64,000 bases of DNA. Origin: Brachionus koreanus. Lineage: Eukaryota; Rotifera; Eurotatoria; Ploima; Brachionidae. Under the pieces are notes generated by a model. That model had not been told where the DNA came from, made no database searches, and saw only the letters and a program-made list of their open reading frames with translations. The stretch lies in assembly GCA_016987375.1 (NCBI GenBank), contig PJRA01000412.1, positions 2,490,629 to 2,554,628 on the forward strand, given 5' to 3'. Shown piece after piece: positions 7,501 through 30,307 of the stretch. The position numbers were made by a program, and so were the translations under genes. Every line of letters begins with the position of its first letter. Positions within the stretch are counted from its first letter, which is position 1.

Positions 7501-8987
7501 AATTTATTGTTTAGGATAAATTATAAAATTAGGTATCAAGTTAACATACATTAATTTTTTGTTATTTTAACTATTCAATAAAATTTGTTTAATTAAAAAT
7601 AAAATACTGGAAAATAATTTGCTGAATCATTTGTATTTTTTTTTTAAATAATTTTGGAGATACTCGATAAAAGTAGTAGATTGATTAATAATTTAGTTTG
7701 GGTCTTCTTATAGTATTGAGCCTAGTGGGGTTTTAAATTAAATTTAATCATTTGAATGATTCAATCTATATTTAGTAATCAAATTACTTCTCTATTTGTA
7801 CTTAGGTGATTTTTAGCTCTCAACTTAATTACAAAAAATTTCAGTTCAAATTGAAAATTGTGAAAAACTTTAGAGAATACTTTTTTGTTGTTGTATTGTG
7901 ACATCGTTAGTTTAAATTTTTGATTTTTATCTGAAATGACTAGAGAGTGAATTATTTGAGAAATAATTTCATAGAATTTAATAAAGAAACCAGATATTGC
8001 TATATGCTGGAATACAGATTGACAACAATTTATTTGACACTATTTGTTTTTGTAATCTGTCAATTTGTTAATGAAAATCAGATTATGTTTTAATGCTATT
8101 TTTTTTTCAATTTCGTTTAGTCAAAAAATGTAATTTTGTTGTTTAATTGAACATTTTTTTTTATTGCAACTTGGATTATCATTAGTAGATAGACTTCAAA
8201 TTTATTTAAACGAAAAATAAAAATTTTTCTTTATTTTTTCATAAAATTTTTAATAAGTATTTAACCAGAAAAAAATCAAATTTTTTTTAAATTGATTTTT
8301 TATGGAACCAAACAAAAATAGTATCTAAAGCAAAGTTAAGAAGAGAATTAGTCAGAAAAATCGATTTATTTTAGAAAAAAAAAATTTGGAACTATTTTTA
8401 ATAAATTAAACTCTGGTTATTGATTTTTATTGCAAAAGAAGACTTTTGTAAATAATGGTTTGCACTTGTACAAATCAAATATTTGCTTGAATAAAGCAGC
8501 ATATTTTTCGGATTAGAAAAGTGTCCGTTTTGAGGCATCATGTGACTCGCATATTTAAATTTACTTAAGTATTCAAAAAGCTAATCGTGGCTAGAGTGAA
8601 TATTTCAATATTAAAAAAATTCAATTTTAGAATCTAAAGATAAAGAGTTCAAGTATTTAGTGAACATTGAAAACAACTAAATGTAAATATTGAATTCCAT
8701 TTCAGTAAACAATCTGTTACATAATCGTATTAAAAAGATAAATATTCTAAAATTACCTAATTTGTGCGATTTAATTGTATCGGTGAAATTTTCTCATTTT
8801 TTAGAGCGTGTTAGTTTTGATGCTTCTTGTTCATTATTACGAAATAGTTTCTATTCGCTATGTGACACGATTTGATTGATCGGTTAACACATGGTACTTG
8901 ACAAAGCTGATACATAATTCTTGCATCATCACCTTATAATTTTCAATATTTATTTTCTATTCTATCATTTATTTACTTAATTTTAAA
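4510..8987. other. Long intergenic spacer
   Basis: About 4.5 kb of AT-rich sequence after the tubby-like gene. I see no supported exon, RNA gene or intact transposon. A 61-codon open frame at 8690-8875 has AT-driven composition and no recognisable domain; it more likely belongs to the 5' flank of the SH3 gene that starts at 8988. Confidence 0.4.
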
Positions 8988-11372
8988 ATGTCTTTAGAAT
9001 CAAATAGAATGATACGAAAGATAAGAAATATCCTAAATCCTAAAGAGAACACACAAGCAACACTTTACGATATCCAGGCAGCCAATTTAGCCAATTCAAA
9101 AAATGGACCAGGCTCACCAGTCAGCTTCATCAAAAAAAGTAAGTCTTAATTTAATTAAAAACTAAATTTTTTTTCCAAAAACATGTTTTTTGTTTTATCA
9201 ATATGATAATTAAATACTTCTTAAAAAAAAGATTTCTCTAAATTTTATTAATAAAAAAGGAGTGTTATTCTATTAAATGTTTAAAATTGTTTTATTATTT
9301 TTTCAACATAGTTAATAAGTAATCTGTAAATCAGTGTTCATTTTTTACTGACATGTCATTATTTCATTAGTAACATTCATTAAATTCGAGTAATTAAGAT
9401 ATTAAAAAATTTAGTAAATTTTGATCTTAAGATTTGAGTAACTCAAAGTATTTGGATTTAGATCCAAACTACTAAATTAAAACAAAAGTCTAAGATTCTT
9501 AATAGCAGCTTTTTATTTATTATTTTTAGTATTTATCTAATGATTTTATTTAAATAGAAAAAATAAATGAATGAGGCAGAATTTTTAATGTTCAGTTGAC
9601 AATTTAAAAAACATGAGATCCAAGAATTCTTAAGAATGAAAATAAAATACAGACTTTTAATTTTGAAAATTTTTTTAGAATTTTAAGAACAAAATATCAT
9701 TTAACTATTTATTTGTATGAAAAATTTTTTATAATTTTTTTTTCTAATATTTAAAGAGATCCGCTCAACAAAGTCCTGGGTAAAGCTTCCAAAGAACGGA
9801 AACAAAGTGTTCCAGGAAAACGATGGGTCCTACGAGTCAGTGTCTTCAATGGAGCCAGCTAGTAACGAATTCGAAAGCTATACTCGTGTGAATAAAAACG
9901 AAAACATGCAGCTAAAAATACCCAAATCTCCACTAGTTCTAAAACATTCCACTTTAAACTCAAAATTAAATGAAACCGATCTACCAAATGACTTGAACTC
10001 CAAAATTATTGACAAACTAAGCAAGTCATCTATAGAAAATCCGGCAAACATTCCAATACTATGCACCTACTCGTTTAATATAAACGATCCAAAATGGGTT
10101 CAGTTGACCAGCAAATTTAATCTTTGTGGCCTTAATGTGCGCTTGATTGAGCTTCAAAAAGGAGTGCCTGTAAACGCAATCTTTTATTTGTCCAATTTGG
10201 ATTTGATTTATGTGAAAACAGCAGATGATTTGGAAGGCTACGTGCCCCGCAACTGCTGTAGACCAATCATTTCTAGCAATGAGTTGAGCATGCGTAAAAG
10301 CCATGCTAGCACAAAGCCATTAGTTGGTTTTCGGCCAGTGAAAAGCATCAGCAGCGACACTGACACCCTAAACACAAATTCAAACAATTATTCGGACGAG
10401 AAATCAACCGCAAACGATTCGATTAAATACCACTCACTGTCAATCGAATCAGAATATGATGATTTAATAGAGAATATTGACGAATCTAAACCAAAATTGA
10501 GCAATAATTATCTAGCTAGCTGTGACCAAAGTCAATTTTCTGTACTCAATCCAGACTTTTCTTTGTGCAAATATCGAGATTCCGGGTATCGAAGTGAAAT
10601 TGAAAATAACATGACTAATTTTTCCACTAATTTCAAAATTCTCGATGATAGTCAAGAAAAATTGGATAAATCTTCCAAATGCTTATTGTCCATGCAAAGC
10701 AGAAGTCGACTGCCTATATCCATTCAAAGCAATCTCAATCTGACTTTAATGGACGAGAATGGACAACCCGAAAGTCAAGACTCATTTTGCAACGTGCCTT
10801 GCAAAGGAGTTTTTTACAACAACAGCAATCTTCGCATGTCTGCCAGACAACCGCGTTATAAAAAGAACGAATTCAAGCGGAACAACATTCGCCGATCGCT
10901 TGACTCGTACTTAACCGGTAATCCAAATGATCCATCTAGAATTCAGTCTTTCTATGCCGTTTCAATTGATCTAGATGAAGATAAAGAAAAATCAAATAAT
11001 TTGAACATAAATTCTCGTGATTTGATGTACTATCCGGACCTAGATTTGAATAAAATTGAGCTAGATTCGCTGAATGAGTTGGACAAGGAGCATGAAAAGA
11101 TTTGGACCATTGTTCTGAAGCATGAGGCTAGAAATTTTCAAGAGATATCGGTGAGTCCAGGCATGTTGGTCTCGGTTATACGAGATTTCAGTGATATGCT
11201 CTATGTTAAATTGCTTGGATATGAAAATTCTAGTCTTAATTTATCACAACAGTATGGTATTATACCGAAAAGCTGTGCCGTTGACTTACAGGAAATAATT
11301 TATACAAGTAATAAAAATTTGAATGCTCGATTTGAGCAAAATAGAAGAAAATCTCAAATAACTGCTTTGTAA
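8988..11372 (+). CDS. Two-SH3-domain adaptor-like protein
   Basis: Two exons, 8988-9138 and 9757-11372, joined in phase 1 across a 618-bp intron (donor GTAAGT, acceptor TTTAAAG), give 588 residues. Exon 1 starts MSLESNRMIRK; the join continues basic as KKKIRSTKSWVKLPKNG. The first SH3-like domain lies at about residues 135-205 and ends in the diagnostic EGYVPRN (ALYDY-type start CTYSF, then LIYVKTADDLEGYVPRN). The second, at about 500-570, has EISVSPGMLVSVIRDFSDMLYVK and ends YGIIPKSCA. The roughly 290 residues between them are Ser/Asn-rich and probably disordered. The SH3 fold predicts binding of proline-rich partners and a scaffold role. Drosophila Dlish/vamana, a multi-SH3 Fat-pathway adaptor, is one candidate relative, but I cannot show orthology, so no symbol is given. 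Confidence 0.8.
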
Positions 11373-12225
11373 AGTTGATTTTTAGATTTGATTCTACTTT
11401 TATTCATATTAAATTTATTATGTAATTGTTTATTGATATAATTGAATTAGGCAATAATTGTAAATTTATTTTTCTTTAATTTGTAATTTATTATTTTTAT
11501 TAATGTTAGATATTAATTAAATTAAATTAAATGAAAAAAAAAATGGATAAATTGAATGTTAAAATTTTTTTTGAAAAATTTTTATATTTTTTCTTAAGAT
11601 TTTATTTATTTTTAAAATAAAAAAATGCTCAGTTTAATTTTTTTTAAAATTTAATTTTGTACTAAATTTTACTAGAAATAATTTCAGATTAATAGTTTTT
11701 TACGAAAAAGAAGGTTTGATTATAACCACAATCATTGCTTACAATCACTTGATAAATTTTGTGATTAGTTAAAATTATCATCTAAATCAGCTCTACATTT
11801 AATAATTTAAAAAAAGCAATTGTCTTAAATTGCTTTCCTCTTAATATTCAAAATGAATGAAGATATGTTCTGAAAATAATATCCAAATTAGTTAAGTTTA
11901 GTCTATTGAATAAACATAAATAACATTGTAGATGACATACTGTGTTATAAATAATTAAATGAATAAGAAAAATAAAAAAAAAAGAAAAATTTATTTTAAA
12001 GAAAAAAAGGATTTTTAAGTCGAATCTATTGTAATGGTATTTTGGGTTGTTTAACATCTTCTCATGTTTACATCTTTTGTTTCACAATTCGAGATTTAAA
12101 AATTTCACACATTAGGAATGTGTATTATAAATATTGATTTTTAATATTAATATAATTTTCAATAGGACTATTATTTATTTATGAATTTTTTTATTTGATA
12201 TTCTCCGACACTATTTATTCTTTTC
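11373..12225. other. Intergenic spacer
   Basis: AT-rich 3' flank of the SH3 gene. A short open frame on the minus strand (11848-12057) is homopolymer-driven. Nothing else is supported. Confidence 0.4.
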
Positions 12226-12490
12226 TTGAGTGATACTGCCTATTGCCTGCCAAAAGAAGTAAAAATTGCACTGTTTGCAGATGATCTATGCATTTGGATT
12301 ACAAGAACTTCAAAAAAAAGAAATTTAGCGTCTCCTTCAAGCTGCAATAGAGGAAATCGTGGAGTTTTGCAATAAATGGGCCTTCAAAATGAATAAAACA
12401 AAATTTTCCACACTACTTTCACAAGAGCTGGTGCTAGAAGAAACTACGAAAGAAAATACAAGCTAAATATCAAAATTGAGCAAGAAGAGG
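12226..12490 (+). pseudogene. Reverse-transcriptase relic (non-LTR retrotransposon)
   Basis: Conceptual translation gives VKIALFADDLCIWITRTSKK, carrying the FADD form of the catalytic YxDD box, followed after a one-base frame change by LLQAAIEEIVEFCNKWAFKM and NKTKF. This is the palm and thumb order of jockey/CR1-like retrotransposon polymerases (FADDxxxW, then L...I..WC..W...N..K). The 5' part, endonuclease and 3' end are missing and stops interrupt all frames, so the copy is dead. Confidence 0.75.
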
Positions 12491-12663
12491 TACCACAAGA
12501 GGGTATGGGTGAAGTGATTTATCATTAATAATTTTGATGACATTTTAAAAATTATAGAAAAAATTACAATCTGTAAATTCATAAGAGACAGGTGAAAATT
12601 TAATTTTACCTATCTAAAAACGGTATATGGTGACAAATATATTGACATTTTTTTGATATGACA

Positions 12664-12850
12664 ATTTTTATTCTTTTTTTTTTTTTTTAATAAATAATAA
12701 TAATTGTGGGGGAATGCCCCTGGGTTTGTCCGAATAGCCTTCGCTTTCGTTTAAACCCTCAAATTTGAAAATTTTGAATTTTTACAAAAGAAAAAAGGAG
12801 TAAAAAAGAGTAATAAATACAATTTACCTAAATGTATTAAAAGAATGTAT
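12664..12850 (-). repeat. Retroposon 3' tail, copy 1 of a dispersed family
   Basis: Near-identical to 42908-43075. Read on the minus strand, the unit contains GGCTATTCGGACAAACC, then a short hairpin GGGGCATTCCCC, then ACAATTATTATTATT and a run of A (poly-T on the plus strand at 12672-12690). A 3' hairpin followed by an A-rich or trinucleotide tail is typical of non-LTR retroposon ends. No open frame is present. Whether it is a SINE or a truncated LINE end cannot be decided here. Confidence 0.65.
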
Positions 12851-13191
12851 TAGAAGAAATATACAATTTTTATTTTGTTTGCTATAAAATTATATATACA
12901 AGTTAATCTTTATAATCACTTTTTTATTGAATTACAAGATAACACAGATGATATAAACTTAAAGATATAAATTTTACGGATTAAGCTGTTGAAAATCATT
13001 TCAGGAATGATGATGTTATTAAGATGACAAAAATATACAATAAAATTTTAAAAAAATGGTTTTAGTAATAATAAAAGTAAAAATTATTTTTACAAATTTA
13101 AAAAACATTCTATTTTATTGTCTATATTATTTAATTGACAGCAAAACATTTATTTTATATTTTTTTATTTTTCAAGACAAAAAAATGGACA

Positions 13192-14760
13192 TTAAAAATT
13201 TTTAGATTTTTTTGGACAAGACGATGATAAATCTAAATCATCTCCAGCATTTTTAGATTTAGGAGGTCTTCCTCTTTTTTTCTGTTTAAAAGCAGGTACA
13301 TGATTTTCTTGATTATTTGATATATTTGAATTTGAAATTTCTCGTGAAATTGAGTGGTCAATGGTAAGAATAAGCCATGGTGAATTGATTGAATTATTTT
13401 CCTCTTTTTTCATTTTGTCTAATGGGGCATCTCTGGCATTCGGATTCCATTCTAATTTATTGGCACGACAGGCTATAGCAATCACATGTTTACAAATTTT
13501 GTTTTTTGTCCAATAAGGACAAGAGCAAATACTTTTTTTATAATCTTCTTTATTAAAAGATACAGCCCAAATACTAGTAATTAGACTTAACCACTTATCA
13601 AAATCCAAAATATCAGCCCCTTTTAAGCTGTTTTCAAAGTTTTTTATTAATTCATCATCTAAATTATTTCTTGCTAGCCTTCCTGATGGAATGTAATATC
13701 TACCACATTTTTCTTTTTTATTTTTTAAGATATCCAAGTTTTTATTTAAGTGCTGCCATGCAGATTTCCAATTTTCAATGCTTGGCTCAACTGAAATTTT
13801 GAAGAGAATAGGACTATTGTGACTTTCTGCTCTTTCAGATGACCATTTTTTCAGAAGTTTTACTGAAACCATGTTTTAAAAATTTATTTACTGGAAGTTG
13901 TTTTCGAAAAGAATTTTCTTCTTTAACCAAACTATATATTAATTCTGAAGTGTTGTTTGTCTTTGGGATTTCAGGTGAAAATGATTCATACCAAGAACAA
14001 TTTTTATCAATAAAATTTTCTTTAAAAAAATTTATAAATAGCTCAACTGAATCAAGTTGATATTTTTTCCATTTATTTAAAGCGCAAGCAGCAACACTTT
14101 TAAATTATGTATCTCTGAATGTAACTGAATATTAAGTATATCTTCTCTAATCAATTTTCTAATTTTATTGTCTTTAATTTTGTTCAATTTTAAGACATAA
14201 TACCAGTTGGCCACATGTTGAAATTTTTTATCAAATACATTTTCAAAGGCTACTGCAATTGCTGGATTAATATCAGAAATTAAAGCACTTGGTTCAAAAT
14301 TCTTTTTTTTTTAAAAGTTTTAGTTCAGTTTTTATGGCTTCAAATGTAAACATAAAATCTTTTTCATGTTGATTCTTACAAATTGTTAATCCAAAAAAGT
14401 GAAAATTATTTATAGAATCAATGGTACCAATGATAATTACGGGCAGGCCATGAAATTTGAATCAACAAGACCACGATTTTCTTCAATAAATAAATGATCA
14501 ATTATTGCTAGAGAAGTCTTCGAACTATAATCCAAAACATCAATATGAGTCTTTTTCTCCACATTATTAAGTTGTTTGCAAAAGGAGGTTTTTTCTGATC
14601 AAACTTTTCATAATTTCCGCGAAGGAAGGTCAAGATATTCCAGCACACTGAGCTGTTCTTTATTTGCTTTAAAAAGAATATCTTGTGTTTTGTGTATAGT
14701 TGTTCAATCATCTCTAACTGTAAGGCTTCTAACAAAGGTCTGATTCTCGAAAATTACTTA
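13192..14760 (-). pseudogene. MULE-type transposase relic with SWIM zinc finger
   Basis: Read right to left, the order is: an N-terminal piece with LEALQLEMIEQLYTKHKIF (14508-14735); a catalytic-region piece with QHEKDFMFTFEAIKTELK; SDINPAIAVAFENVF (about 14230-14290); HVANWYYVLKLNK; SVAACALNKW to KTSEKMV (13840-14098); and finally an intact 226-residue frame (13192-13872) with the SWIM finger CSCPYWTKNKICKHVIAIA and an AT-hook-like KKRGRPPKSKN tail. The pieces sit in different frames with stops between them, so frameshifts (one near 13850) break the gene. MULE transposases move Mutator-like DNA elements; the SWIM motif CxCx(n)CxH binds zinc. I saw no terminal inverted repeats. Only the C-terminal 226 residues could still be expressed. 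Confidence 0.8.
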
Positions 14761-15259
14761 AACTTTAAATAAATAAATTAGATATTAAGCTCTAACCTGT
14801 CCCCATGTTTCGTTTTCATTAATATTTCATAAAGGATCTAATTGATATACAATATGGATAGCATGTAGAATAATTTGAGATTTATATGAGATATCATTAG
14901 AAAAAATGTATGAAGACTCACGTGTGAATCTAATGCGATTCTCGTATATTTTCTCATTACTTTTCTCACTAATTCTAATTACAATCTCTCAAAAAAAAAG
15001 CATTACAATAAAAAATTGCTTTTTGGTTTAATATAATGGCTTAGATTTTAATTTAAAGTTTTATGATTAGAACGATTTAAAAATGTCGATTTTTTTATTA
15101 ATTTATTTAAAATTTATATAATTTATATTAATTTTTTTTTACAATTATGGTTCAAATAAGAATCTGATAAAAATTAATTATTTAATCTTACTATTTTAGG
15201 TTTCTTACATTGAAACACATACAAAAATTGGAAATTTACATCATCAGAAATTTAGTGAT
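14761..15259. other. Spacer between two transposon relics
   Basis: AT-rich with no supported gene. The part next to 14760 may still hold unrecognisable N-terminal MULE sequence. Confidence 0.3.
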
Positions 15260-15730
15260 AAGAATTTGATAAAAAAATGTGTTTTTAACTATCAAACATC
15301 AGTGATTGCAAAGTGTTTGAATCAATTTTTTTTAAACATGATTCAATACGTCGAATCAACGTTCTGCTGTTGCTTTCCAACCTCCTTCATAGACATTCTG
15401 TACCGAGATACCCAAAAAATCCTCTATTGGTCTAGCTTGTGGAACATTTGGAGGATTAATGTCTTTAGGTACATAATAAACCATTTCATCCATTCAAGAA
15501 ATCGACTCAGCAGATCAAGGAGCACTTATTATATCAGGCCAAAACAAAGAATTATAGTCATTTTTTTGGAACCTTTTCTTTTCCAATAAATTGATACACT
15601 TGCATTTCCTAGCATTTCATTACTAGAAAAACTAAAATATTTTTCATCATATAAAATTACGATGCTTTGCTCTTCATAAAGCCGATTTCGAGTTTTCGAC
15701 AGTTTTTTTGTGCTTTGAGTCACTGGGCAT
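15260..15730 (-). pseudogene. Mariner-like transposase relic
   Basis: Minus-strand translation contains a catalytic-Asp segment YDEKYFSFSSNEMLGN (15529-15723) followed by WKRKGSKKMTII, then after frame changes INPPNVPQARPIEDFW and YEGGWKA near 15370-15470. The PPNVPQARPIEDFW block is a signature of mariner/Tc1-group DDE transposases just before the last catalytic Asp. Frameshifts and stops separate the pieces, so the copy is inactive. No terminal repeats were found around it. Confidence 0.75.
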
Positions 15731-16418
15731 CATTAAACTAAGGCAGCATTTATTGATTCAAGTAGATTTTGACATTTAAAGATTGATTAACTTGAAATTC
15801 AATATATTTAAAAAAAAGACATAATTCTGGTTGTTTCCTTAAAGTATTTATATTTATTCAACTGAAGAATAATAATTTTTTAAATTAAAATGAATAAAAT
15901 AAAATAAAATATTTTTTAAATTTTACATTTAATGAAAATAAAATTAACAAAAAATATTAAATAAAGTGAACACAGATCAAAAGAAGAATCAAAAATGGTC
16001 AAAAGAACTCCTTGGGCCTTAGACTGCTAGTTCACTCATAAATTTCTATGACATTCTATCTAATGTTTAAGAGTTTTAGCAATTTAATTGAAATTAAAAA
16101 AAAAATTGATTAACTTCGCAAGTAAATTTATTGTTAATTGAATATGAAAAATAATTAAATAATTTTTTATTTCTCTATAAAAATAAAATTTGATAATTAA
16201 ATTTTAAAAATATGATTATACCTAATTAAAAGCAAGTCTAAACATAAAAAAAAATTTAGTTTAAATCTTGGCTTTGTAAGGAATCAGCTTTGTTCAAATT
16301 ACTAAATTAAATCTATTTGTAATGTATTTTAATGAAAGTTTTGATCAAGTTTTTTTTAGTTTATTAAAATTTTTTTGATTTTTTTTCAGAAATTTAATGA
16401 AATTTTTTTTCCTTGGAT
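15731..16418. other. Intergenic spacer 3' of eIF4A
   Basis: AT-rich; no supported gene. The right-hand part must contain the eIF4A 3' UTR, because the gene ends at 16419 on the minus strand. Confidence 0.35.
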
Positions 16419-19400
16419 TTAAAGCAAATCAGCTACATCTTGAGGCATTTCATTAATTTGAGTGTTATAGAAAGTCTCAATATCATGCAAATTCTTTTTG
16501 TCTTCCTCAGTCACAAAATTAATAGCCACGCCTTTACGACCAAATCGTCCACCACGTCCAATTCTTATTTAAAAATTAATTAAAAATCTAGCTACTAATT
16601 GGAGCATTTTTAAATACCTGTGAATATAGTTTTCGCGATTGTTCGGCAAATCGTAATTGATTACTAATGATACTTGTTGCACATCGATGCCACGAGCAAG
16701 TAGATCAGTAGTGATCAACACACGAGATGATCCTGTTCTGAATTCTCGCATGATAACTTCACGCTCTCTTTGATCCATGTCACCATGCATGGCCGATACA
16801 GTAAAGTCTTTTTGATGCATTTGTTGAGTCAACCAGTCTACTTTACGTCTTGTATTACAGAAAATTACAGCCTGAGTAATTGTCAAAGTCTCGTATATGT
16901 CACACAAAGTGTCCAATTTCCACTCCTGTTTTAAAATAAATTTTACTTTGTAAAAACAATTTTTTTTGAAAAAAATTTTAAATTTTCTTAGTAATATTCA
17001 AAAAAAAATTTTCAAATAAAATTTAAAAAATATTCTTTTCTTTCTCTAAATTTAATCTGTCAGTATACGACGTACTCCAAAATTTATAAAATAAAAATAA
17101 AATCGTGGAGTATAGCGAGTAGACTTTTTTCCTATGGCACATTTAGGGAACGCCTAAACTTGCAATAAGAAATGCAATTTGGAGCTGAATGTGCTTCTCT
17201 TGAATTTACTTTAAAATTTTTTTATAAAAATTTTTTCAAAACAAAAAAGTTTAAAAAAATTTAGAGAATATTTTCCTAAAAGAAAGTTAACTTTTTTTTA
17301 AAATTTAATCTGTTAGTATACGACGTACTCCAAAATTTATAAAATAAAAAAAAAATCGTGGAGTATAGCGAGTAGACTTTTTTCCTATGGCACATTTAGG
17401 GAACGCCTAAACTTGCAATAAGAAATGCAATTTGGAGCTGAATGTGCTATTTCAAATTTTAATTTTTTCCAATAATTTATCGAAGATTGGATTGGGACAA
17501 ATGAATATCAAATTATTCATAATCTCACTTGATCTTCTTTATATTTTTCCTTTTTTTATTTTAATTTTAGCTTCATAAACATATTTTGAAATATCTATGA
17601 ATTTTGATAAAAGGTTTTTAATTAGAAAATGATGTATAAAGTCTTGATTAGTACGATATAAATTTGAAAATTTATCCATACAACGAGTGACTTTAGATTT
17701 ATTTTCCTTTACGCTTCGAATAGCCTATTTCTTTTTATAGCTTAATAGACTATGATTTTATAAAGGATTTCGAAATAGTTTTAAAAATTTAAAAAAAAAA
17801 GCAAAATTACCTCTTTTTGAACAAAGACATAGAATTGCTTAATACCTTCCAGAGTAAGCTCTTCTTTTTTGACCAAAATTCTAATAGGTTCTCTCATGAA
17901 TTTTGTTGTCACTTCTAAAACTTCACTTGGCATAGTGGCCGACAAAAGAATAACCTGGATGTTGTACGGCATTTTGGTGAAGACATCATGAATTTGTTCC
18001 TTGAAACCTCTAGATAACATTTCATCAGCCTCATCCAAAACAAACAATTTGATTGTCTTAGGATCTAAAAAACTTAATAAGACCAAGTTCTTGTAATATT
18101 TAAAGTTAACACATACTTAAGGCCTTTCGGTTGATCATATCTGACACACGACCTGGAGTTCCGACAATTATTTGTGCGCCGGTTTCCAATTTTCGCGCAT
18201 CCTCTTTTACATTGGTACCACCGATGCAAGCATGACAAGTTACTCCCATAAAGTCGCCCAAAGCCAAGACGACTTTTTGGATCTTTAATTATTAAATTTT
18301 AAACTGATAAATTGAACAAAAATTATATCTACTTGTTGAGCCAATTCTCTTGTTGGCGCCAAAATTAGAGCTTGACAACTTTTGATTGACATGTCCAATT
18401 GCTGCAATATCGAAATGGAAAAGGTAGCTGTTTTACCGGTACCGGACTGAGCTTGAGCAATAACATCAGAGCCTTAAATTGAATAAATTTAATTTAAAAT
18501 AAACTATATTTATTTATATTTTTTATTCAAATTAATTAATAGATAACAACAAAAAATAATTTATCATTTTTCTTAAAATTTTTAAATAAATTTAAAAAAT
18601 ATTCTTTTCTTTCTCTAAATTTAATCTGTCAGTATACGACGTACTCCAAAATTTATAGAACTAAAAAAAATCGTGGAGTATAGCGAGTAGACTTTTTTCC
18701 TATGGCACATTTAGGGAACGCCTAAACTTGCAATAAGAAATGCAATTTGGAGCTGAATGTGCTTCTCTTGAATTTACTTTAAAATTTTTTTATAAAAATT
18801 TTTTCAAAACAAAAAAGTTTAAAAAAATTTAGAGAATATTTTCCTAAAAGAAAGTTAACTTTTTTTTAAAATTTAATCTGTTAGTATACGACGTACTCCA
18901 AAATTTATAAAATAAAAAAAAAATCGTGGAGTATAGCGAGTAGACTTTTTTCCTATGGCACATTTAGGGAACGCCTAAACTTGCAATAAGAAATGCAATT
19001 TGGAGCTGAATGTGCTATTTCAAATTTTAATTTTTTCCAATAATTTATCGAAGATTGGATTGGGACAAATGAATATCAAATTATTCATAATCTCACTTGA
19101 TCTTCTTTATATTTTTCCTTTTTTTATTTTAATTTTAGCTTCATAAACATATTTTGAAATATCTATGAATTTTGATAAAAGGTTTTTAATTAGAAAAAAG
19201 ACTGATTTTAAAATGTAAAAAAAATATCCAAGCCCTGATTAGTACAACATAAATTTGAATTATTTGTACTCAGTTAAGACTTTGTTTTTCTTTCCTTCAA
19301 TAATTTTATTTGAATAAGATTTTTTTATTGAGAAAAAAAATCTGATTTTGAAGGAATTGATAAAAGTATTAATTAAAATGGCTAGTACCTTTGATGCAAG

Positions 19401-19786
19401 GAATGATGGCACGCTGTTGAATAGCTGAAGGTTTCTCAAAACCATACGCATAAATACCACGCAATAAGTCCTCACGTAGATTCATCATATCGAAATTATC
19501 GGCAATCTCATTCCAATTGCCCTTTTAATTTTGAAAAATTTAGTTCAATTTGTTCCATTTTTGCCAATTTATTTTACTCACCTCGATAACGCCATCGACC
19601 TCCATTCCTGGCGGGCCGCTCTCGGCTTTGTATTCACTTAAAATTTAAACACGTTTTACTAAGCTTATTGTACTTAAATTTTGGAACAAAATTTTTGAAC
19701 TAATTAATTCTTTTCTTTTTTTAAGATCGTGGAAAGTTTATGAAAAATAGAAAGATTTTTTTTTACCTTTTTTCTTGTTCGCTCAT
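16419..19786 (-). CDS. EIF4A: Eukaryotic initiation factor 4A (DEAD-box RNA helicase)
   Basis: Eight exons on the minus strand: 19767-19786, 19582-19636, 19389-19521, 18333-18472, 18117-18282, 17811-18064, 16618-16925 and 16419-16563. All joins keep phase and total 406 residues, the same length as human eIF4A1. Motifs appear in family order: Q motif [13 protein letters not shown], Walker A AQSGTGKT, Ia [11 protein letters not shown] in ACIGGTN, TPGR, DEAD, SAT, RGID and the Arg finger region HRIGRGGR; the end is MPQDVADLL. The protein unwinds mRNA 5' UTRs as part of eIF4F in the cytoplasm. The 20-nt first exon encodes MSEQEK; a longer alternative first exon lies at 20236-20327. The two long introns (16926-17810 and 18473-19388) each carry two snoRNA-like units; the other introns are 49-130 bp. 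Confidence 0.97.
17055..17194 (-). ncRNA. H/ACA snoRNA-like unit, copy 1 (intron of eIF4A)
   Basis: Read on the eIF4A strand (17194 to 17055), the unit opens with GCACATT, which pairs with AATGTGC 51 nt later. Inside is an upper stem AAATTGCA/TGCAAGTTT with one bulge, leaving asymmetric internal loops. Next comes ATAGGA, a match to the H-box consensus ANANNA. The second hairpin has a base AGTCTAC/GTATACT (one mismatch) and an upper stem TACTCC/GGAGTA. It is followed by ACA exactly three bases from the end (ACTGACAGAT). This is the complete hairpin-hinge-hairpin-tail plan of H/ACA RNAs, which guide pseudouridylation with dyskerin. Translation-factor genes including EIF4A1/2 are known snoRNA hosts in vertebrates. 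The target was not determined. Confidence 0.75.
17308..17447 (-). ncRNA. H/ACA snoRNA-like unit, copy 2 (same intron as copy 1)
   Basis: Near-identical to copy 1. The base next to the ACA box differs (ACTAACAGAT instead of ACTGACAGAT), yet ACA and its three-base spacing are kept. Stems GCACATT/AATGTGC and TACTCC/GGAGTA, and the H box ATAGGA, are unchanged. The A/T-rich terminal loop of hairpin 2 has a slightly different A/T run. It lies about 110 bp upstream, in transcript order, of copy 1. Confidence 0.72.
18624..18762 (-). ncRNA. H/ACA snoRNA-like unit, copy 3 (second eIF4A intron)
   Basis: Same 5' stem, H box ATAGGA and ACTGACAGAT ending as copy 1, and the same flanking bases (TTCTCTTGAATTTAC beside the 5' end). 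The hairpin-2 loop differs (TTATAGAACTAAAAAAAA on the plus strand), giving 139 nt. It lies in intron 18473-19388 on the host strand. Confidence 0.72.
18876..19015 (-). ncRNA. H/ACA snoRNA-like unit, copy 4 (second eIF4A intron)
   Basis: Pairs with copy 2: ACTAACAGAT ending, CTATTTCAAATTTT flank, identical stems and H box. Copies 3 and 4 therefore repeat the copy 1/copy 2 tandem arrangement, as expected from block duplication between the two introns. Confidence 0.72.
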
Positions 19787-20235
19787 TTTAATTCACTATA
19801 TTAGGAAAGAAACATATGAATTTTATATGTTTGATGTGAATGAAATTTTCAAAGCAAGAGTGAGTGAGCGAATAAAAGCATATACTTATACACATAGACT
19901 GATAACGTGCGAAGTCTGTGTGCATATTTTTTTATTTAAAACTAGTTAAAATGCATTTGAAAGCAAAACAAACCTCCAAAAAGCAATTTTTTGAAAGCAT
20001 GTTTTTAAAGATTTTAATATTATGATGAGTTGACTTGAGCGAGAATGCGCTCTTTTATTATGTATAAAATTTTAACTTGAACTCAAAATTAGCATGCTCT
20101 CTCTCTCTTTTTTCTTAAGTTTAAAGACAGCTTTTAAGTTCTATCTGCAGCTAGACAATAAATTAAGACTTTATTTTACTTAAGACACGCTTTCAAAAAG
20201 ACAAAAGTTTTGGATTAAAAATTTGAGCATCTTAC

Positions 20236-20327
20236 ACTTCATTGTTTTGTTGGCCGTTTTCTTTACGGCTATCGGAACCAGCCTTACTGTTACCTTCTCT
20301 TTCCTCGATTGTTTGTTTAGGTTGCAT
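20236..20327 (-). CDS. EIF4A: Alternative first coding exon of eIF4A
   Basis: A minus-strand ATG at 20327 opens a 92-nt frame beginning MQPKQTIEEREGNSK and ending QQNNE plus GT at a good donor (GT|GTAAGA). Its phase (2) equals that of the annotated first exon 19767-19786, so splicing to the exon at 19636 reads [13 protein letters not shown] in frame. Base composition is clearly richer in G/C than the spacer. The product would be eIF4A with a 31-residue polar N terminus in place of the 7-residue one. The short exon has no acceptor in front of it, so the two first exons look mutually exclusive, implying two promoters. Alternatively this could be a separate short upstream reading frame that stops just after the donor. 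Confidence 0.55.
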
Positions 20328-21453
20328 TTAATTTTAAGACAAAAAATAAAATTTTTGTTCTTTTTTAGAAATCTAAATTTAAATGAAATTATTGACCTTA
20401 ATATACATTGCTCTTATCTTAGCTGAAAAATTTATTTTAACAAAAAACTGCAGGTTAAACCAATATGAATGATTTTTATACTTCATTTCAAGATTAAATT
20501 AACAACTATATATTTTTACCTCCAAAACATATTTTAAATACTTTAAAAAAAGATCTTTTATTTAAAACTAAATTAACAAATTTCATAGTTTTATATTTAT
20601 CATAAAACATTTTTTTTAATCTTTTTTAATTATTAATATTTTGAAAAAAATAAAAAAAAATTTAATTGTAATATTGAAAAATAATTAAATTTCAAAATTT
20701 CAATTAATTTATATCGGATGTAATTTCGAAATAAAAATGTTTATTCATAATTTAGAAGAAAATTTTTTTTCTTAAATGATTGTTAAGTTACATAAACCAT
20801 TAACATATAATTATAAAAAAAACTCACATGCTTTGGATCAATTTAAATGTCGACTTTTTTTTTGGGAAAAAATTTTTTCAAAAAAGTCAACTTTTAATAA
20901 AATATGTAATTTTTTTTTCAAATCTTTATTTCTCATTTAAAGTGCCTAAAATCATAAACTGTAGTTTCAGACATTCTAATTTCAATATTTTTTAAAACTT
21001 AAACTAAGAATTTTATTTTAAATTTATAAAATTTTCTGTTTAGTCTAATTTTTTTTAAGCCACAAAACTATTATTTAGATAAGTGAATGATACAATGATT
21101 AAAAAATTAAAAATATATCCAGAATATCTCTTTAATCTTACAAACATTCAAAATGACTTAAAATATTTTACTTATTTTGTAAATTAACGATAGATTTTAA
21201 TAAAAAATAAACAAATTTATTTCACCAAAAATAAATTTATTAAATCAAACAAAACATAATTAAAAAATAATATATATATTTTCAAAATAAAAGATAAACC
21301 GAAATTCTTTTTGTCAACATTTACCAAAAAATCTAATTAATTAATAGAAAAGCAATTTATATAAAATCATTTTTTTTGTGTAAACGTTCGGACAGTAAAA
21401 GCCTTTTTTCTTTTCAATAAAACGTTCTATTTTACACATATTTTATTAGCAGT
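20328..21453. other. Intergenic spacer
   Basis: AT-rich; no supported gene. It should contain the distal eIF4A promoter if the alternative first exon is used. Confidence 0.35.
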
Positions 21454-21708
21454 TTAAGTATTTTCTGAGAATTTCGCTTTTTTTGAGGGGATTTGTAACT
21501 CTTTATCACTTGATTCATGGCCAGATTCTTGTATTAAATTTTCGGTCAATCGGACACAATCAGATAGTATAAACAAGGTCTGGTATTTTTTTGTTGGCCC
21601 CCTTTTTTGAATTCTTTTATTTGAATTGTCCAGCAAAATCTGCTTGTAAGGAAATAGTTTGGCATTGTTGAGCGTTTGATCGTCAGAGTTCAGCAAAACG
21701 CTTTTATT
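21454..21708 (-). CDS. Orphan terminal exon, hypothetical protein
   Basis: An open minus-strand frame from an acceptor-like AATAAAAG at about 21709 to TAA at 21454. About 84 residues are encoded, with no internal ATG, so it would have to be spliced to an upstream exon. Codon use is richer in G/C than the flanks. It contains KRIQKRGPTKKYQTLFIL and ends PSKKAKFSENT, basic patches that could act in nuclear targeting. I do not recognise the family and could not find its upstream exons between 21.7 and 23.3 kb. It may be a relic. Confidence 0.3.
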   Translation of the reverse strand, partial: NKSVLLNSDDQTLNNAKLFPYKQILLDNSNKRIQKRGPTKKYQTLFILSDCVRLTENLIQESGHESSDKELQIPSKKAKFSENT

Positions 21709-22171
21709 TAATTTAGTTAATTTTAAATCAAATTAATTAACTGAGTAAAAAATTAATTGACAGTTAACAAAAATATTATTCTTTATCTTTTTTATTGAAT
21801 AATTAAAATAATTATCTTTATTTAATAAAAGTGTGAAGCAAATGTTTTTTTTTTATTTCAAGATTTAAAAACTAAATGAAATTGTTTTTTAAACCATTCG
21901 TGAAAAACATGAATCTAAAGCTAAATAAAAAAAAAAATAAAATTTCTTCTCAATTCTTAATCTAATTCTAGTATAAAAACATGAAAAAATTTAGACTATA
22001 GGTAGACAGGAAAATGAAAAATTTATCTAAAATTAAATTAAAATAACCAAAACTCTTTGATTTATTTTTATTATTTAATTTTAAATATATATGAGCAATA
22101 ACTCAGACTGCTTTATCCATTTTTTATTCTTTGATTATCAATATAATGAAAGGCCAAAGACTCGTATTTAT

Positions 22172-22349
22172 TAGTGTTGGGTACCGGCAAAAAAATGCCG
22201 TTAGCCTTCTTGATTGCCAAGAGGAATAAATTTTTTTTCTTATACCCAATTCTTGTATATATCAAATTTTCATATTTGAAATTTTTTTATGTTTTATTTA
22301 TAAACATTTTTGTCGGTCTAATGTCCGTCACTGATGGCACCCAACACTA
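22172..22349. mobile_element. Small hAT-like MITE
   Basis: Inverted ends TAGTGTTGGGTACC (22172) and GGCACCCAACACTA (ending 22349) bound 178 bp with no coding capacity. The eight bases outside, GTATTTAT on the left and ATAATTAT on the right, agree at six of eight positions, compatible with a decayed 8-bp target duplication as made by hAT elements. Superfamily is inferred from TSD length and the TAGTGTTGGG-type end only. Confidence 0.6.
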
Positions 22350-23397
22350 ATAATTATAATCATTAATTAATATTCATTTTTTAAAATTATTTCACAAAAG
22401 TAAATTAGAAAATAAAAATTTTTTTTTAATAAATTTTGATTATTAGTTGTCAATGATTTCAGCAATCAAAAATAAAGATTTAAACCCGTTTAAAATATAA
22501 ATTAAAATCTAAATTTTTTTGAATTGAATGCTTTTATTTAGGCAATTTTAATCAAAAAATTTCATTAATCAAGATAGACTTTGTTTAGTTCACTTTTTAT
22601 TTTCAAGCAAATATCGAAATTAAAAATTAATATTTTTGTATTAATCTCTGTTAAAAATTCCAAAAAATATTTTATTTAAAAAAAATTGAAGAAATTGGTT
22701 TTTGAACTTTTTTTTAATGCTATATATTTAACTCCTTACTTGATGAAAAAGCTTGAAAAGATAAATCACTATAGCAACTGAGAATTAAAATCCTAAATTT
22801 TAAAGAAATGCCGAAGCGATCAACAGTTGTAATTATTCAAATAGTTAGCTTAGGGAAAATATTTACCATTTAGATTAAAAATATTTGTTTAAAAGCCATA
22901 AAAAATCAATCATTAAGAACGTCAGTTCTTCACTTAATAATTATTCGACTAGTTCGATCTCGTACCCGAGGCAATCGTGACTATTTTCTCAACTATTAAA
23001 ATAAACACACTTAAACAACCTCTTTAAAAGTTGGTCTTTCCGTTTCATGAAATTGTATGTTTTTTTCCCAACTTAAAGCACTTATTTCGGCTAGTTACTG
23101 AACCTCGATACAATTCAATCAAATAAACCCTAATTGCAATTATTAATGAGAATTTATAAAGTAAAAAGATCAAAAACTAGGACATTGACTAGATTAAGTT
23201 TGTAGATTTCAAGTTAATTTTAATATTGTTGCTTTTCTGTCTAACAAAAAAATAAAAAATTAAAGAAAAAAAACGCACCACTATTCAAAATAAGTGAATA
23301 ATGAATTTCAAATTATACATATTATCTAAATAAAAGAGAAAATATTTAATTTAATATTTGCGATTTTAAATCAATCAATTAATCGTTGGCAATAATT
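22350..23397. other. Spacer upstream of the LAP gene
   Basis: AT-rich; a less AT-rich patch at 22915-23120 (with TCGTACCCGAGGCAATCGTG) may be promoter or 5' UTR of the gene that starts at 23398. Nothing else can be named. Confidence 0.3.
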
Positions 23398-26300
23398 ATG
23401 CCATTTTTCGGAATTGGTAAATTCAGCTGCAGTGGTAGTAGAAATGAGCCCAAAGAAATAAGTGTGCTTAATTATTCACACAATAATTTAACATATGTGC
23501 CAGAAGAAATAATTCTCCACGAACGATCTTTAGAAGAGCTTTTTTTGGATGCCAATCGTATAAACGAATTGCCAAGAGTAAGTCATATGTTCGTCTTTGC
23601 TGATTAAACAATTTAAATATCTTATTTTAGTGGCTGTTTCAGTGCTATGGTTTGCGAATACTTTGCCTAACAGACAACGAGTTTCAAGCGTTGCCACCAG
23701 CCGTGGCCAACTTGATCAATCTGGAAAATTTAGATATAAGCAAAAATGACATTAGAGAAATTCCTGATACCATAAAATGTTGTAAAAAATTGTCTATTTT
23801 TGAAGCAAGTGTTAATCCAATTGGAAGGTATTATCAAGAAAATTATTAAGAAAAAAATTTATATCATCATTTTAAATGTCTAGATTGCCTGAAGGATTCA
23901 TGATGCTGGTATACCTCAAAGAGCTTTATCTTAATGACACATTTTTAGAATATTTACCTAGCAGTTTTGGCAGGTAAGAAAATAAAAATTTCCCCCTCTT
24001 TTTAAACAGTGATTTGTACAATATTTTGGCAGACTTTGTAATCTAAAGGTTTTGGAAGCGAGAGAAAATCGGCTAAAAAATTTGCCCAGATCGATGAGCA
24101 GACTAATTGATTTGGAACGATTAGATATTGGAACAAATGAATTTGACACATTTGTAAATTTTTTTTAAACTCTTTTTCCTAATAAAAAACAATACATATT
24201 TCTTATAATTTTAGCCCGAAGTTCTAAGCAGTCTTATTAATTTGCATGAACTTTGCATTGATAATAATAAACTTGAATTTATTTCATCGGTAAAATAACA
24301 GATAATTAAAAATAAACTTAAAATAATTAAATTATTTAAAAGGATATTGGAAATCTAAAAAAACTTTCTTTTTTCGATTTAAGCAAAAACAAGCTTAGAT
24401 ATCTTCCAGAAGAACTTGGCGAATGTATTAGTCTTACTGATTTGCACTTGTCCGAAAATAATCTTGTAGGATTACCTGACTCAATTGGTAAATAATTTAA
24501 TTTGAATTTGACTTTGAACTTTTCTACTATTCAACTTACTAGGACGTTTGTCAAATTTAGCTATTTTAAAGCTTGATCTAAATCAATTAACAAAAATTCC
24601 AACCTCAATTGGCGGGTAACTATTCGATCACTCAATTTTAAAAATTCAATAAGAAAATTAATTTTTGATTTAATTTTGTTTTATCCAGTCTTAACTTACT
24701 GTACGAGCTTGTACTCAGTCACAATTTTATAGTTGAAATACCTAGCACAATAGGTCTATTAAGAAATTTAAGAACACTTTATTTAGACGAAAATGAGCTT
24801 TCATTCATTCCTGCTGATGTATTATTTAGAATTTTTAATTTAAAAATTTTTTTATTTAATTTTTTAAAACTAGATTGGAAGCTGTAGCTATTTGAGTTTA
24901 TTGTCAATGAGAGAAAATAGACTAACATATGTACCCGACGAAATAGGTCGTTTAAGCAGACTTAAAGTATTAAATCTTAGTGCAAATTTGATTCAATATT
25001 TGCCCTATTCAATCAGCAAACTAAAAGAACTCCAAGCCTTATGGCTTTCCGAAAATCAGGTAAGCTTTAATAAAAAGTTTTATTCAAAAATAGAAAATTT
25101 TTATTTAAACCTTAGACAAAACCTTTGATTCAACTTCAGCAAGAAAAAGACAAGACCGGTAAACGCTACTTGACTTGTTATTTGTTTCCACAAGAGCAAA
25201 TAAGCAGAAAAAGAGGTAAATTTAAAAACGTTAATTGATCTTGCTATTAAATTATTAAAATAAAAAAGAAAATTTAAAATATTCAGCAATTAATGAGATA
25301 AATGTTCGCAAACGTTATTTGGATGATATGAGGATTCATCAATTGTATGATAACTTTGGACACAATTTATCAAAAGACAAAAATTACAAAAAGCCCATTG
25401 ATTCAAACTTATTAATTGATTATAATTCCAGAGATTTTTTAAACAATCAAATTGATAAAATAGCCTTCAACGATTATGAAAATACAACTAGACAAAATTC
25501 AATTAGATTTACCAGTGATTTGCCAATATTTGATCATGGGGTAATTAAATTTAAAAAATTTTAAAACAAATTTAATTGAACATGTGTTAGATTTAATGAA
25601 TTTTTATGCAATTCTTGAAAGACATTTTGTCTTATTTCATTTAGAGTTTTTAAAAAAGTGAGATTTCTAAAAATTGATGAAAAATTTCAAAATTTATTTT
25701 ATCAAATGTTTTGTCTAAATGAAATTCTGATACACGCTAATTCTAAATGCTCAGTTGGGATGCAGATGGTTGCGGTTCATTTTTATTTAAAAGAGCATTT
25801 TTTTCTCAATTTAGATGGTGAATATTAAATCAAAACTTTTTTTTTTATCTTTTTTAAAAACTCTAATTGAGACCTAAAATTTCTAGAATATTTTGGTCAT
25901 TGTTACCAAATATTACTAGATATCCAAAAATTTTAAGATAGAATTTTAATTTTATATCTACTGATTAAAGATTTGAGTATAAAGATAAAAAAAAGCTAAT
26001 GACTAAATTGATAGTAAAGACTTGTTTAGAATCAATCAGTATTTTCAAAGTTAATAAAATAGTAGCTTTAAAAGAAACTATGGCAATGTGAAATTTTAGA
26101 ACAAAAATTACAGTACAAAAACGGAAACCGATATAATTTTTTTTTCTAATTGTGCAAAAATGGTTCTGCAAAAAGCACATTTACGTACGATTTTGTTCAA
26201 ACGAGTTCTAAAATCTGAAAAAACTCTCATTAAAAAATCATTAGATAAAATTTGCAATAATTTTATAGTTTTTGCAGAGTTTGAAATTCATTTGTACAAA

Positions 26301-27029
26301 TTTATACAATAATCTTCGGTTTGCAGAATCATTCTTGCACAAATAGAAAAAAAAATTATATAGTTTCTACATTTTGTATTGAAATTTTTGTACTAAAACA
26401 TCCAGAGCTGGTCATAAGTCAAACTCAGAGTCTGACTTTCAAATTATTTTGAGCTCAAGTCAAAGTTTATTCTGAGTTTAGTCTTCTATAAAAACATAAT
26501 TTTTTTCTCTTTTATATTATCTTTTTGTTTAAAATTTTAGCTTAAATTAAGATTTTGAAAAGGAGTATTATAAAATAGCTTTATTTAATTTGTTTTTCTT
26601 TTCCTTTTTTTTGTAAATTATTATTATTATTATTATTATTATTTAAATGAACGCCTTTAAGACGATGTTAAAAGAAAACAAAAAAATAAAATAAAGTAAA
26701 GAGCTTTAGAGAAATAAAAGACAAGTTTTTGAAAATATTGTATTTTTTAAAATAAAAAAAAAACGCTTTTTTCTTAATCTAAAATTTATTTTCTTCTCTA
26801 AAATTAATTAATTTTTTTAAATGATAACTTAAATTCAAAAAATATCTTTATCTCAAAAAATTATTAAATGTATTTTTCAATTTAGAATTTACTCTTAAAA
26901 CCAATTGCTGGCAATTATAATACAGAACAAATAAAAAATATTTATCTTGATAGTCCTAGTGGAAATAATTACGAGCGAGAGAAAGCTTTCAAAGTGCACA
27001 AATCGGTGAATCGAATGAATGGAATCTAA
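23398..27029 (+). CDS. LAP-family leucine-rich repeat protein (Erbin/Densin/LET-413-like), no PDZ domain seen
   Basis: Twelve exons: 23398-23577, 23631-23827, 23884-23973, 24033-24153, 24215-24289, 24343-24487, 24543-24615, 24689-24818, 24874-25059, 25116-25215, 25287-25540 and 26886-27029, all joins in phase, 564 residues. After an N terminus with [19 protein letters not shown] comes [15 protein letters not shown], then about 16 leucine-rich repeats including [49 protein letters not shown] and LDIGTNEF. The LAP-specific end follows: [42 protein letters not shown]. The order matches Erbin/LRRC7/LET-413 more closely than Scribble. These proteins mark the basolateral domain of epithelia and synapses. 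Unlike most members, the coding sequence ends (KSVNRMNGI, stop) without a PDZ domain; vertebrate LRRC1/Lano is similarly PDZ-less. Intron 25541-26885 is 1.35 kb, far longer than the others. Confidence 0.92.
26619..26690 (-). repeat. Retroposon 3' tail with CGTC/CGCC hairpin, copy 1
   Basis: Plus strand shows (TTA)n, then ATTTAAATGAACGCC TTTAA GACG ATGTT. Read on the minus strand this is a hairpin (one stem mismatch here) followed by TTCATTTAAAT and a TAA microsatellite, a typical non-LTR retroposon 3' end. The same unit recurs at 30308-30370 and 30405-30485. It lies in the long intron of the LAP gene. Confidence 0.55.
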
Positions 27030-27864
27030 TGGCAGACAGTTTAATTTTAACTTTGTAAATGTGCGTTAAGTGATCAATTTTTAATTGAGAATTAATTTCA
27101 ATTTTTATTTCATTCATTCAAATTTTTGAGTAACCAAAATCTAAAAAATTTTCTATGACTAAATATTTTTTTTATATTTTTGATATAATATTTTATAAAT
27201 GTTATGACTTATTGAAAAAGGAATCTATAAATTTTGTAATAAAATTCTATTTTATTCTATTTAATAACTAAATCAAATTAAAAATTGTTTTTTTTTAAAA
27301 TTTTTTATTATTATTTAATATAAGAAATAAATATATTCGAAAAAAAATTTAATAAAAAAAATCATTAATTTTAGACGATAGTTGTCAAAAAAACTGTAGA
27401 CTCATACATAAAATTTATTCTGGTTTTAAATATTTTGTTTCTTTATTATTCATTTAATTGATTTCTTACATGTATGATTGTATTTGGAGACATGAAAAAT
27501 TTTAAATTAGAATAGCATCTCAAGGACAAAATAATTTAGCTTTTGGAATAAAAAATTATATTCAGTTAATTTTTATTCAAAACAAAATTTAAAAATATAT
27601 GCTTAAAAATAAAATTAATTAACTAAAAATGATCAAAAATTAAAAACAAATTTTTCTCTCAAAATATCAAAATTTTGAATTGTTTCTCTGTTATGTTTAT
27701 TAATTTTTCAACTAAATTTTTCATACTTGATAAAGTAAGATTTTTTGATATTCTAGGTCAAAAGGAAAAAATTCAAAATCTCTAATAAATTTGAAAGCTA
27801 TCATAACTTAACAAAATATATTTTTTATAATATTAAAATAAGATAAAATAGAAAATATAAGCAA
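27030..27864. other. Intergenic region between convergent LAP and HMBS genes
   Basis: The two genes end facing each other, so this AT-rich stretch holds both 3' UTRs. AATAAA-type signals are present (for example near 27238), but no gene or repeat is recognised. Confidence 0.4.
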
Positions 27865-29150
27865 TTAGAAGCTGCCATGAACTATTAATTTTATTTCGTT
27901 GATTAACAGATCAGCGCCTTTTTCCTTGAGTTTTTGAGCCAAGTGTAGACCACATAGTTCAGCTTTAACCATTTTATTTTCATCAATATTCAAATCGGCA
28001 AGAAAACAAAAATGTCTCAAACCAGGTTCGATTATTTGATCACTATTTTCAACTTTAACGCGTTTGGGTATTTTATTATCTTCATTAGAGTCTTTCAAAC
28101 TTCGCTTGGGACTATCGATATTTTTTGTTTCATTCAAATCAGATTGATCGCTAACAGCAGGTATTATTGGACAAGCATTTGATTTGTCGTTAAAATTGAT
28201 CTCGAATCTATCTTGAATTCGCTTTGTTCCTTCCAAATCAAAAACAGCTCCTTCCAGAATTATGGAATTATTAGTTAGACAAGAATTTACACCTATCGGT
28301 GCACTGCATCCACCTTCTAGCTTGGCTAGAAAAGTACGCTCTGCAATGCATCGTAAGAGAGTTTCTTCATCATTTAGTCTATTAAGCATTCGGATAACTT
28401 CAAAATCGTTTCGTCGAGATTCAACGCCCAGGGCACCTTGACTGACTGCATGTAAGCAAGTTTCAGGAGGCAAGATATGAGAAATTCTATCATCATATTT
28501 CATACGCTTAAGACCTGCTGTTGCGAGAATTATAGCATCAAATTTTTTCTCATCATCCATTTTGCTCATCCGAGTTTGCAGATTCCCGCGTATGGTCTCA
28601 AATTTAAGCTTTGGATATTTTTCTTTCAATTGGGATATTCTTCTCAATGAACTAGTGCCAATTATACTATTCTCTTCAAAATCATCAAGAGACTTTTTGG
28701 TCTCTACCCATCTCTTTGCTATAACTAGCGAGTCACTTGGATCTTCTCGTTCAGGAACTCCGGAAATAATCAAATTATCAGGCAAAACTTGACAAGGCAT
28801 ATCTTTAAGAGAATGTACAACAAAATCTATGCGATTGGTAAGCAACGCGTCTTCTAATTCTTTGGTAAATAGACCTTTGTCACCAATTTTCGGTAAGGCA
28901 ATATTCAAAATTTTATCACCCTTGGTATCAAAATTAACTATTTCAAAAGTAAAATCAGGATACATTTGTTCCATTCTTGATTTTATACTTTAAACAACAG
29001 ATTAAATTATTAAACAAAAATTCCATTTTAAATTTACTATTCTGATTGCACCATTGCTAATTTGCTTTTTCTCGATCCTATCTTAAAATGTGTTCTCTTA
29101 GCTTGCACTGAATCGCCATGCTCACTCGATACTGGATTTTCCGAACTCAT
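27865..29150 (-). CDS. HMBS: Porphobilinogen deaminase (hydroxymethylbilane synthase)
   Basis: Two exons, 29038-29150 and 27865-28987 (49-bp intron, phase 2), encode 411 residues. The enzyme joins four porphobilinogens into hydroxymethylbilane, the third step of heme synthesis, in the cytosol. N-terminal FKIGSRKSKLA matches the family IRVGTRKSxLA. Next come TKGDKILNIALPKIGDKGLF, TKELEDALL, VVHSLKDMP with the catalytic Asp of HSLKD, IIGTSSLRR, IRGNLQTR, ATAGLKRM and SQGALGVE. The dipyrromethane-cofactor cysteine is at about residue 265 in LEGGCSAP. Domain 3 carries an unusual hydrophilic insertion after ACPIIPAVSD, about 45 residues with two basic clusters (SPKRSLKD and KIPKRVKVE) resembling a nuclear signal. 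This makes it about 50 residues longer than human HMBS (361). The start ATG at 29150 is the only one fitting the family N terminus. Confidence 0.95.
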
Positions 29151-30231: not shown

Positions 30232-30307
30232 TTAAAATTCCTTTTTATTTTTTTTAATATTTTTATCACTAAAATTTGTATTTTACTTAAAATTATATAT
30301 TATTATT

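Follow-up and report, generated by a model that had tools for sequence, protein, structure and literature searches.

Box H/ACA small nucleolar RNAs (snoRNAs) are stable nucleolar RNAs that are bound by dyskerin, Nop10, Gar1, and Nhp2 and that recognize their targets through 9-13 base pairs (bp) formed around a uridine. In yeast, according to PMC8307265, snR37 guides 25S-Psi2944, and PMC2780460 lists snR37, human ACA10, and Neurospora ACA15 as counterparts. As described in the latter source, ACA15 of Neurospora crassa is 233 nucleotides (nt) long, is marked IR (intergenic), and guides 26S-Psi2902 from its H-box-side pocket; the same source gives several snoRNAs per intron for rice and Drosophila and one snoRNA per intron for vertebrates. 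With respect to host genes, human EIF4A2 is documented to host SNORD2, a box C/D snoRNA, and four other snoRNAs, which lie in different introns (PMC10324135). Here, we analyse a stretch of 64,000 nt from the rotifer Brachionus koreanus (assembly GCA_016987375.1, contig PJRA01000412.1, positions 2,490,629-2,554,628 of the forward strand), referred to below as the window, in which four units of 139-140 nt, here called Z, lie in two introns of an eIF4A gene. In our view, these units are very probably copies of one box H/ACA snoRNA that guides the site of large-subunit (LSU) rRNA equal to yeast 25S-2944.

Z is predicted for the same LSU position as snR37 and, like ACA15, would use its hairpin-1 pocket, whereas its copies (138-140 nt) are shorter than ACA15 and intronic. 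No Rfam family reached the gathering threshold over the whole window, and a permissive Rfam search of positions 16930-19400 (E up to 5) placed no family on any Z unit; the three matches of that search all lie off the units, two of them, to plastid untranslated-region families, falling at 17791-17843 and the third, a weak C/D-box match, at 19207-19278 on the opposite strand. The comparison with snR37 is confined to target position and Rfam membership, and ACA10 likewise shows no sequence match to Z through Rfam. Because no sequence family matched Z, we do not claim common descent with snR37 or ACA10; in other words, Z may be said to work like them as regards its predicted target. Human ACA10 is presumably the RNA also named SNORA10, with 28S-4491 as its site and with a second target. 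An earlier, sequence-only reading of this DNA (the first-pass annotation) found no snoRNA that it could name, which is right at the sequence level. Its suggestion of an undescribed guide family needs qualification: no Rfam family matches the sequence, but guides for the predicted site have been described in yeast, human, and Neurospora. What is new is thus a set of probable H/ACA snoRNA genes in a little-studied phylum, for which no snoRNA description was found among the titles listed for the rotifer/Brachionus literature, and what is already known is the predicted target site and its guides. The fit of the Z pocket to a conserved site in the absence of an Rfam match suggests that the target site, not the sequence, has been kept across animals and fungi.

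As the first-pass annotation remarked, eIF4A genes are known as snoRNA hosts in vertebrates, and rotifer eIF4A resembles human EIF4A2 in hosting multiple elements. The human snoRNAs are spread over different introns, whereas each of the two rotifer introns holds four H/ACA-like elements, in the order X-Y upstream of Z-Z in the sense of the transcript. Several elements per intron are found in rice and Drosophila as well, but the rotifer gene has paralogous, partly near-identical cassettes in two of its introns. In human, the members of an H/ACA family tend to lie in several different hosts, as described in PMC8178906, whereas the Z copies found share one host. The unusual part of the locus is this double, partly homogenised cassette of H/ACA-type elements. 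The host gene, the two introns, and the Z units are as follows.

16419-19786, minus strand: eIF4A coding region, 8 exons, 406 codons
18473-19388, minus strand: eIF4A intron 3 (GT...AG), housing the Z units at 18624 and 18876
16926-17810, minus strand: eIF4A intron 6 (GT...AG), housing the Z units at 17055 and 17308
17055-17194, minus strand: Z unit, 140 nt, intron 6
17308-17447, minus strand: Z unit, 140 nt, intron 6
18624-18762, minus strand: Z unit, 139 nt, intron 3
18876-19015, minus strand: Z unit, 140 nt, intron 3

The first-pass annotation had recorded four host-strand units of this size in two eIF4A introns, and the coordinates, the GT...AG introns, and the full-length eIF4A frame bear it out. 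Its account of their anatomy is also accurate. All four window units have the basal stem GCACATT/AATGTGC and, in the hinge, the H box (ANANNA) as ATAGGA, which reads ATAGAA in the three units found on a second contig, C53. ACAGAT occurs in all seven copies, placing ACA 3 nt from the 3' end, which is itself set by definition as ACA+3. Among the window units, the base preceding ACA is G in two and A in two, and the length differences sit in a T-run of the hairpin-2 loop. The unit borders are sharp within one intron, with unrelated flanks. When the whole unit is folded, its energy lies below that of dinucleotide shuffles (z of -3.2 for a window unit and -3.5 for a C53 unit; 0/200 shuffles match either). 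The halves folded singly form the expected hairpins (window unit, -14.8 and -13.2 kcal/mol; C53 unit, -15.7 and -11.3 kcal/mol), and it is from these separately folded halves that we count the hairpin-hinge-hairpin-tail plan as present in Z. The first-pass annotation had also taken the variation among the copies as the pattern of a structured RNA. The changes between haplotypes do sit where the plan tolerates them, but the units at 17308 and 18876 are identical, and the remaining two (17055 and 18624) differ by three substitutions and one gap only. Because the intron blocks have been homogenised, the four window units are not independent witnesses, and they are little independent evidence on structure.

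The targets of the pockets were sought in the LSU and small-subunit (SSU) rRNA of other eukaryotes. The ribosomal DNA (rDNA) came from 13 contigs filed under prokaryote genomes (L034-L046), retrieved by an LSU motif away from the target site; these are eukaryotic rDNA on contigs filed as bacterial, evidently contamination. Annotation of the loci with Rfam gave 39 rRNA segments, and 22 of these entered the pocket scan. LSU that reaches the target site is present in just two of the 13 loci, L040 and L046; a further locus, L052, also has the site, having been retrieved by that very motif. The hairpin-1 pocket of Z, with CAGCU as its left arm and CGUUCCCU as its right arm, is identical in both haplotypes. 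For this pocket there is one outstanding LSU site, AAGGGAACG[UG]AGCUGGGUUU, with a bipartite duplex that leaves exactly UG between its two parts (8+8 bp, -28.6 in L040; 9+8 bp, -29.9 in L046). As long as the basal stem stays closed, the duplex has 13 Watson-Crick pairs; opening the stem raises the number to 16-17. In controls on L040, 1 of 1000 pocket shuffles was as good, and reversed rRNA gave -15.1 as against -28.6.

Near Psi2944, PMC8307265 gives the yeast marks Um2921, Gm2922, Psi2923, Am2946, Cm2948, Cm2959, and Psi2975, and matching bases stand at the distances of all of these in both L040 and L046. Judged by these positions, the predicted pocket-1 target is the equivalent of yeast 25S-Psi2944, in the peptidyl transferase site. 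We propose that the Z RNA would be freed from introns 3 and 6 once the eIF4A transcript is spliced and would assemble with the H/ACA proteins, after which the pocket of its 5' hairpin would pair with the LSU rRNA 5'-AAGGGAACG-U-G-AGCUGGGUUU-3' and the central U of the duplex would become a pseudouridine in the peptidyl transferase centre. Under this guide reading, the LSU rRNA of the rotifer would be expected to contain AAGGGAACGUGAGCUGGG.

A DNA search of the readable 83-Mb assembly found seven Z copies, four in the window and three on C53 (two in intron 3, one in intron 6). A 23-base Z core with up to three mismatches returned the same seven copies, all on the host strand, and its reversed-pattern control returned none. 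All seven lie within eIF4A introns of two haplotypes. C53 is most simply read as the other haplotype, apparently unpurged and highly diverged, and it may instead be a recent paralogue. Its eIF4A gene has 88-91% DNA identity to the window copy, with 20 synonymous and no amino-acid differences in the protein, and, in the parts compared, its positions 12000-32000 are collinear with window positions 8889-25624 on both sides of the gene (DNA identity about 67-95%).

Between the haplotypes, the elements are far more constrained than the sequences between them. In intron 3, differences fall on 21/551 sites in Z, X, and Y (3.8%) and on 65/356 sites in the spacers (18%; p 8e-13), and intron 6 gives 15/419 and 31/178 sites, respectively (p 4e-8). 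The changes in Z affect the loops of both hairpins, the linkers, and the base preceding ACA; one alters the H box at an N position, giving ATAGAA for ATAGGA, and one turns a G-C pair into G-U. All occupy positions tolerated by the H/ACA plan, and no pair of that plan is broken. The same comparison bears on a possible cis role of the elements in eIF4A splicing, whether or not they also serve as guides, as described for SNORD2 in human EIF4A2 (PMC10324135). The host family is the same, but conservation is poor in the spacers that run down to the 3' splice sites (16.1% and 22.9% substitutions), which is where such pairing would take effect, and we regard this explanation as unlikely.

We hold to the H/ACA reading because of the anatomy, the restriction to one host gene and one strand, the constraint between haplotypes, and above all the match of pocket 1 to a known LSU site. 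Several observations nevertheless weigh against it. The whole-unit minimum-energy fold of Z departs from the plan: in place of the basal stem it takes a rival hairpin, which spans positions 23-67 in the window unit and is favoured there by 3.6 kcal/mol, as against 1.5 in the C53 unit. The C53 unit with its basal stem forced still lacks the lower stem of hairpin 2 when folded whole. The distance from target to box is 14-16 nt by the rule given in PMC2780460. For pocket 1, a strict count based on the upper stem of the duplex puts the H box 17 nt away, one above this range, and a count based on the upper stem in the unbound fold gives 15 nt. The second-best pocket-1 site, found in L035 alone, is not weak (-22.2, 8+7 bp). 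Six yeast marks farther upstream (2815-2880) fit L046 in all six cases and L040 in only three; L040 seems to carry an insertion upstream of the target site. In the readable rotifer assembly, the 5.8S family and the exact 23-base LSU motif both gave no matches. For hairpin 2 of Z, the rRNA scanned yielded no convincing target: its best site was equalled by 15/60 and 218/1000 shuffles, and the U of that site corresponds to yeast m3U2843 in the modification data as described, not to a pseudouridine. A home-made H/ACA descriptor, run on both window strands (93 matches above threshold, the best 30 considered), gave four longer matches (184-193 nt) that score between element X and Z, and its score is weak taken alone, as 1 of 300 intron-sized shuffles reached -33.3, equal to Z. 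Finally, eIF4A intron 1, in which no H/ACA-like element was noted, diverges equally little between haplotypes (2.9%, 38 gap sites).

Of the checks that the first-pass annotation had proposed, folding of a window unit gave the expected hairpins in the halves but not in the whole unit, and the scan of the pockets gave the LSU site in other eukaryotes and no convincing target in the five small nuclear RNAs (snRNAs) of the rotifer genome that were scanned. The rival hairpin also raises the idea that the RNA is real but that its working product is the long hairpin 23-67, for example as a microRNA precursor or a snoRNA-derived small RNA. The core of this hairpin is present in the whole-unit minimum-energy fold of both haplotypes, and human microRNA precursors with H/ACA features have been described (PMC2730528). 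We give this idea very little chance: the haplotype changes break two of its pairs (24-66 and 26-64) and create one (31-59), and it leaves the ACA end, hairpin 2, and the split rRNA match unexplained. Least probable, and already largely refuted, is a short mobile repeat resembling a miniature inverted-repeat transposable element, or an intronic satellite array, without RNA function, as the copies, though near-identical, hairpin-forming, and present two per window intron, number only seven in the readable assembly, in one gene and on one strand rather than many, intergenic, and in both orientations as the first-pass annotation had set out for such an element, and as no terminal inverted repeat or target-site duplication was noticed by eye in the flanks, the constraint lies inside the units and not in the spacers, and pocket 1 is complementary to rRNA.

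The snoRNA copies are embedded in larger repeated blocks. When the Y-Z-spacer-Z block of intron 3 is set against that of intron 6 in the window haplotype, 558 sites agree, with three substitutions and one gap, and the Z-Z spacer is identical at 113/113 sites; spacers included, the near-identical blocks are window positions 17055-17616 and 18624-19184. The two Y-Z blocks of C53 match at 304/305 aligned sites, with four gap sites. Between haplotypes, divergence is 4.2 to 4.6% in this Y-Z block and 22.5% in the Z-Z spacer. The near-identity of Y-Z-Z between the introns is most likely the result of gene conversion or of a very recent copy, and, from the pattern of these differences, gene conversion between the introns, separately in each haplotype, appears the likeliest cause of the homogenisation. 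Each intron would then be a cassette of X, Y, Z, and Z in which Y-Z-Z is kept near-identical, and the paired cassettes in two haplotypes would be a natural example of a noncoding RNA maintained by gene conversion. We put forward only tentatively, as a doubtful extension, that these are two four-member H/ACA cassettes in which conversion keeps Y-Z-Z near-identical, so that a single host gene would deliver a several-fold dose of one peptidyl-transferase-centre guide, with X or Y guiding pseudouridines that have no known counterpart.

The first-pass inventory of H/ACA-like elements was correct for the four Z units but overlooked X and Y in each intron.

17630-17768, minus strand: X of intron 6, with H box AAATAA, an ACATCA end, and a hairpin-hinge-hairpin-tail minimum-energy fold
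19222-19356, minus strand: X paralogue of intron 3, which ends in ATATTT and lacks ACA
17475-17616, minus strand: Y of intron 6, a two-hairpin H/ACA-like element in which AUA (GATAAAT) replaces ACA
19043-19184, minus strand: Y of intron 3, identical to Y of intron 6

In DNA searches, X (with the intron-6 query) was found at two places and Y at four, all in these introns of both haplotypes. X of intron 6 has the fold, the H box, and the ACA of the class, with pocket distances of 16 and 15 nt, and it is the top-scoring match of the descriptor scan. The X of intron 3 differs from it by 39% substitutions, two helix positions being changed on both sides, and shows two substitutions and two gap sites between haplotypes. 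Y carries AUA for ACA in all four copies, and its hairpin-1 pocket is over-long on the 3' side; it is an H/ACA-like element that lacks one defining box, and we claim the likeness for its mode of working only. As to targets, hairpin 2 of X pairs with LSU near position 84 in L040 (11 bp in the left arm and 3-4 in the right; 1/1000 shuffles equal) and with SSU in locus L037 only (8+9 bp); these sites may be taken as leading candidates, neither being assigned as the target. Restricting the best 30 of the 93 descriptor matches to those that have ACA and are at most 155 nt long leaves X, the four Z units, and a 142-nt match (-29.8) at 60893-61034 on the plus strand, which lies upstream of a homeobox-like gene, as judged by eye. 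This last match is probably due to chance, because it does not fold as an H/ACA RNA when left unconstrained.

The host gene itself has a full-length reading frame, for which eIF4A-I gives the top matches in a comparison with proteins of known structure. Its exons, in transcript order, are as follows.

19767-19786, 19582-19636, 19389-19521, and 18333-18472, minus strand: first four exons of eIF4A
18117-18282, 17811-18064, 16618-16925, and 16419-16563, minus strand: last four exons of eIF4A

The window has a GC content of 24.5%, and its positions 53622-54416 read as N in the sequence analysed. A neighbour of the eIF4A locus encodes hydroxymethylbilane synthase, with 84% identity to the Brachionus plicatilis protein, which fits a monogonont rotifer in or close to the genus Brachionus. 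A short open frame at 48935-49288 on the plus strand looks, by eye, like the C-terminal end of a reverse transcriptase of the long interspersed nuclear element type. Elsewhere in the rotifer genome, where U1 and U2 snRNA genes were noted on contigs C21, C35, C2, and C51, the U1 genes are paired, about 370-410 bases apart, on three contigs, and two U2 copies lie 1.3 kb apart on C51.
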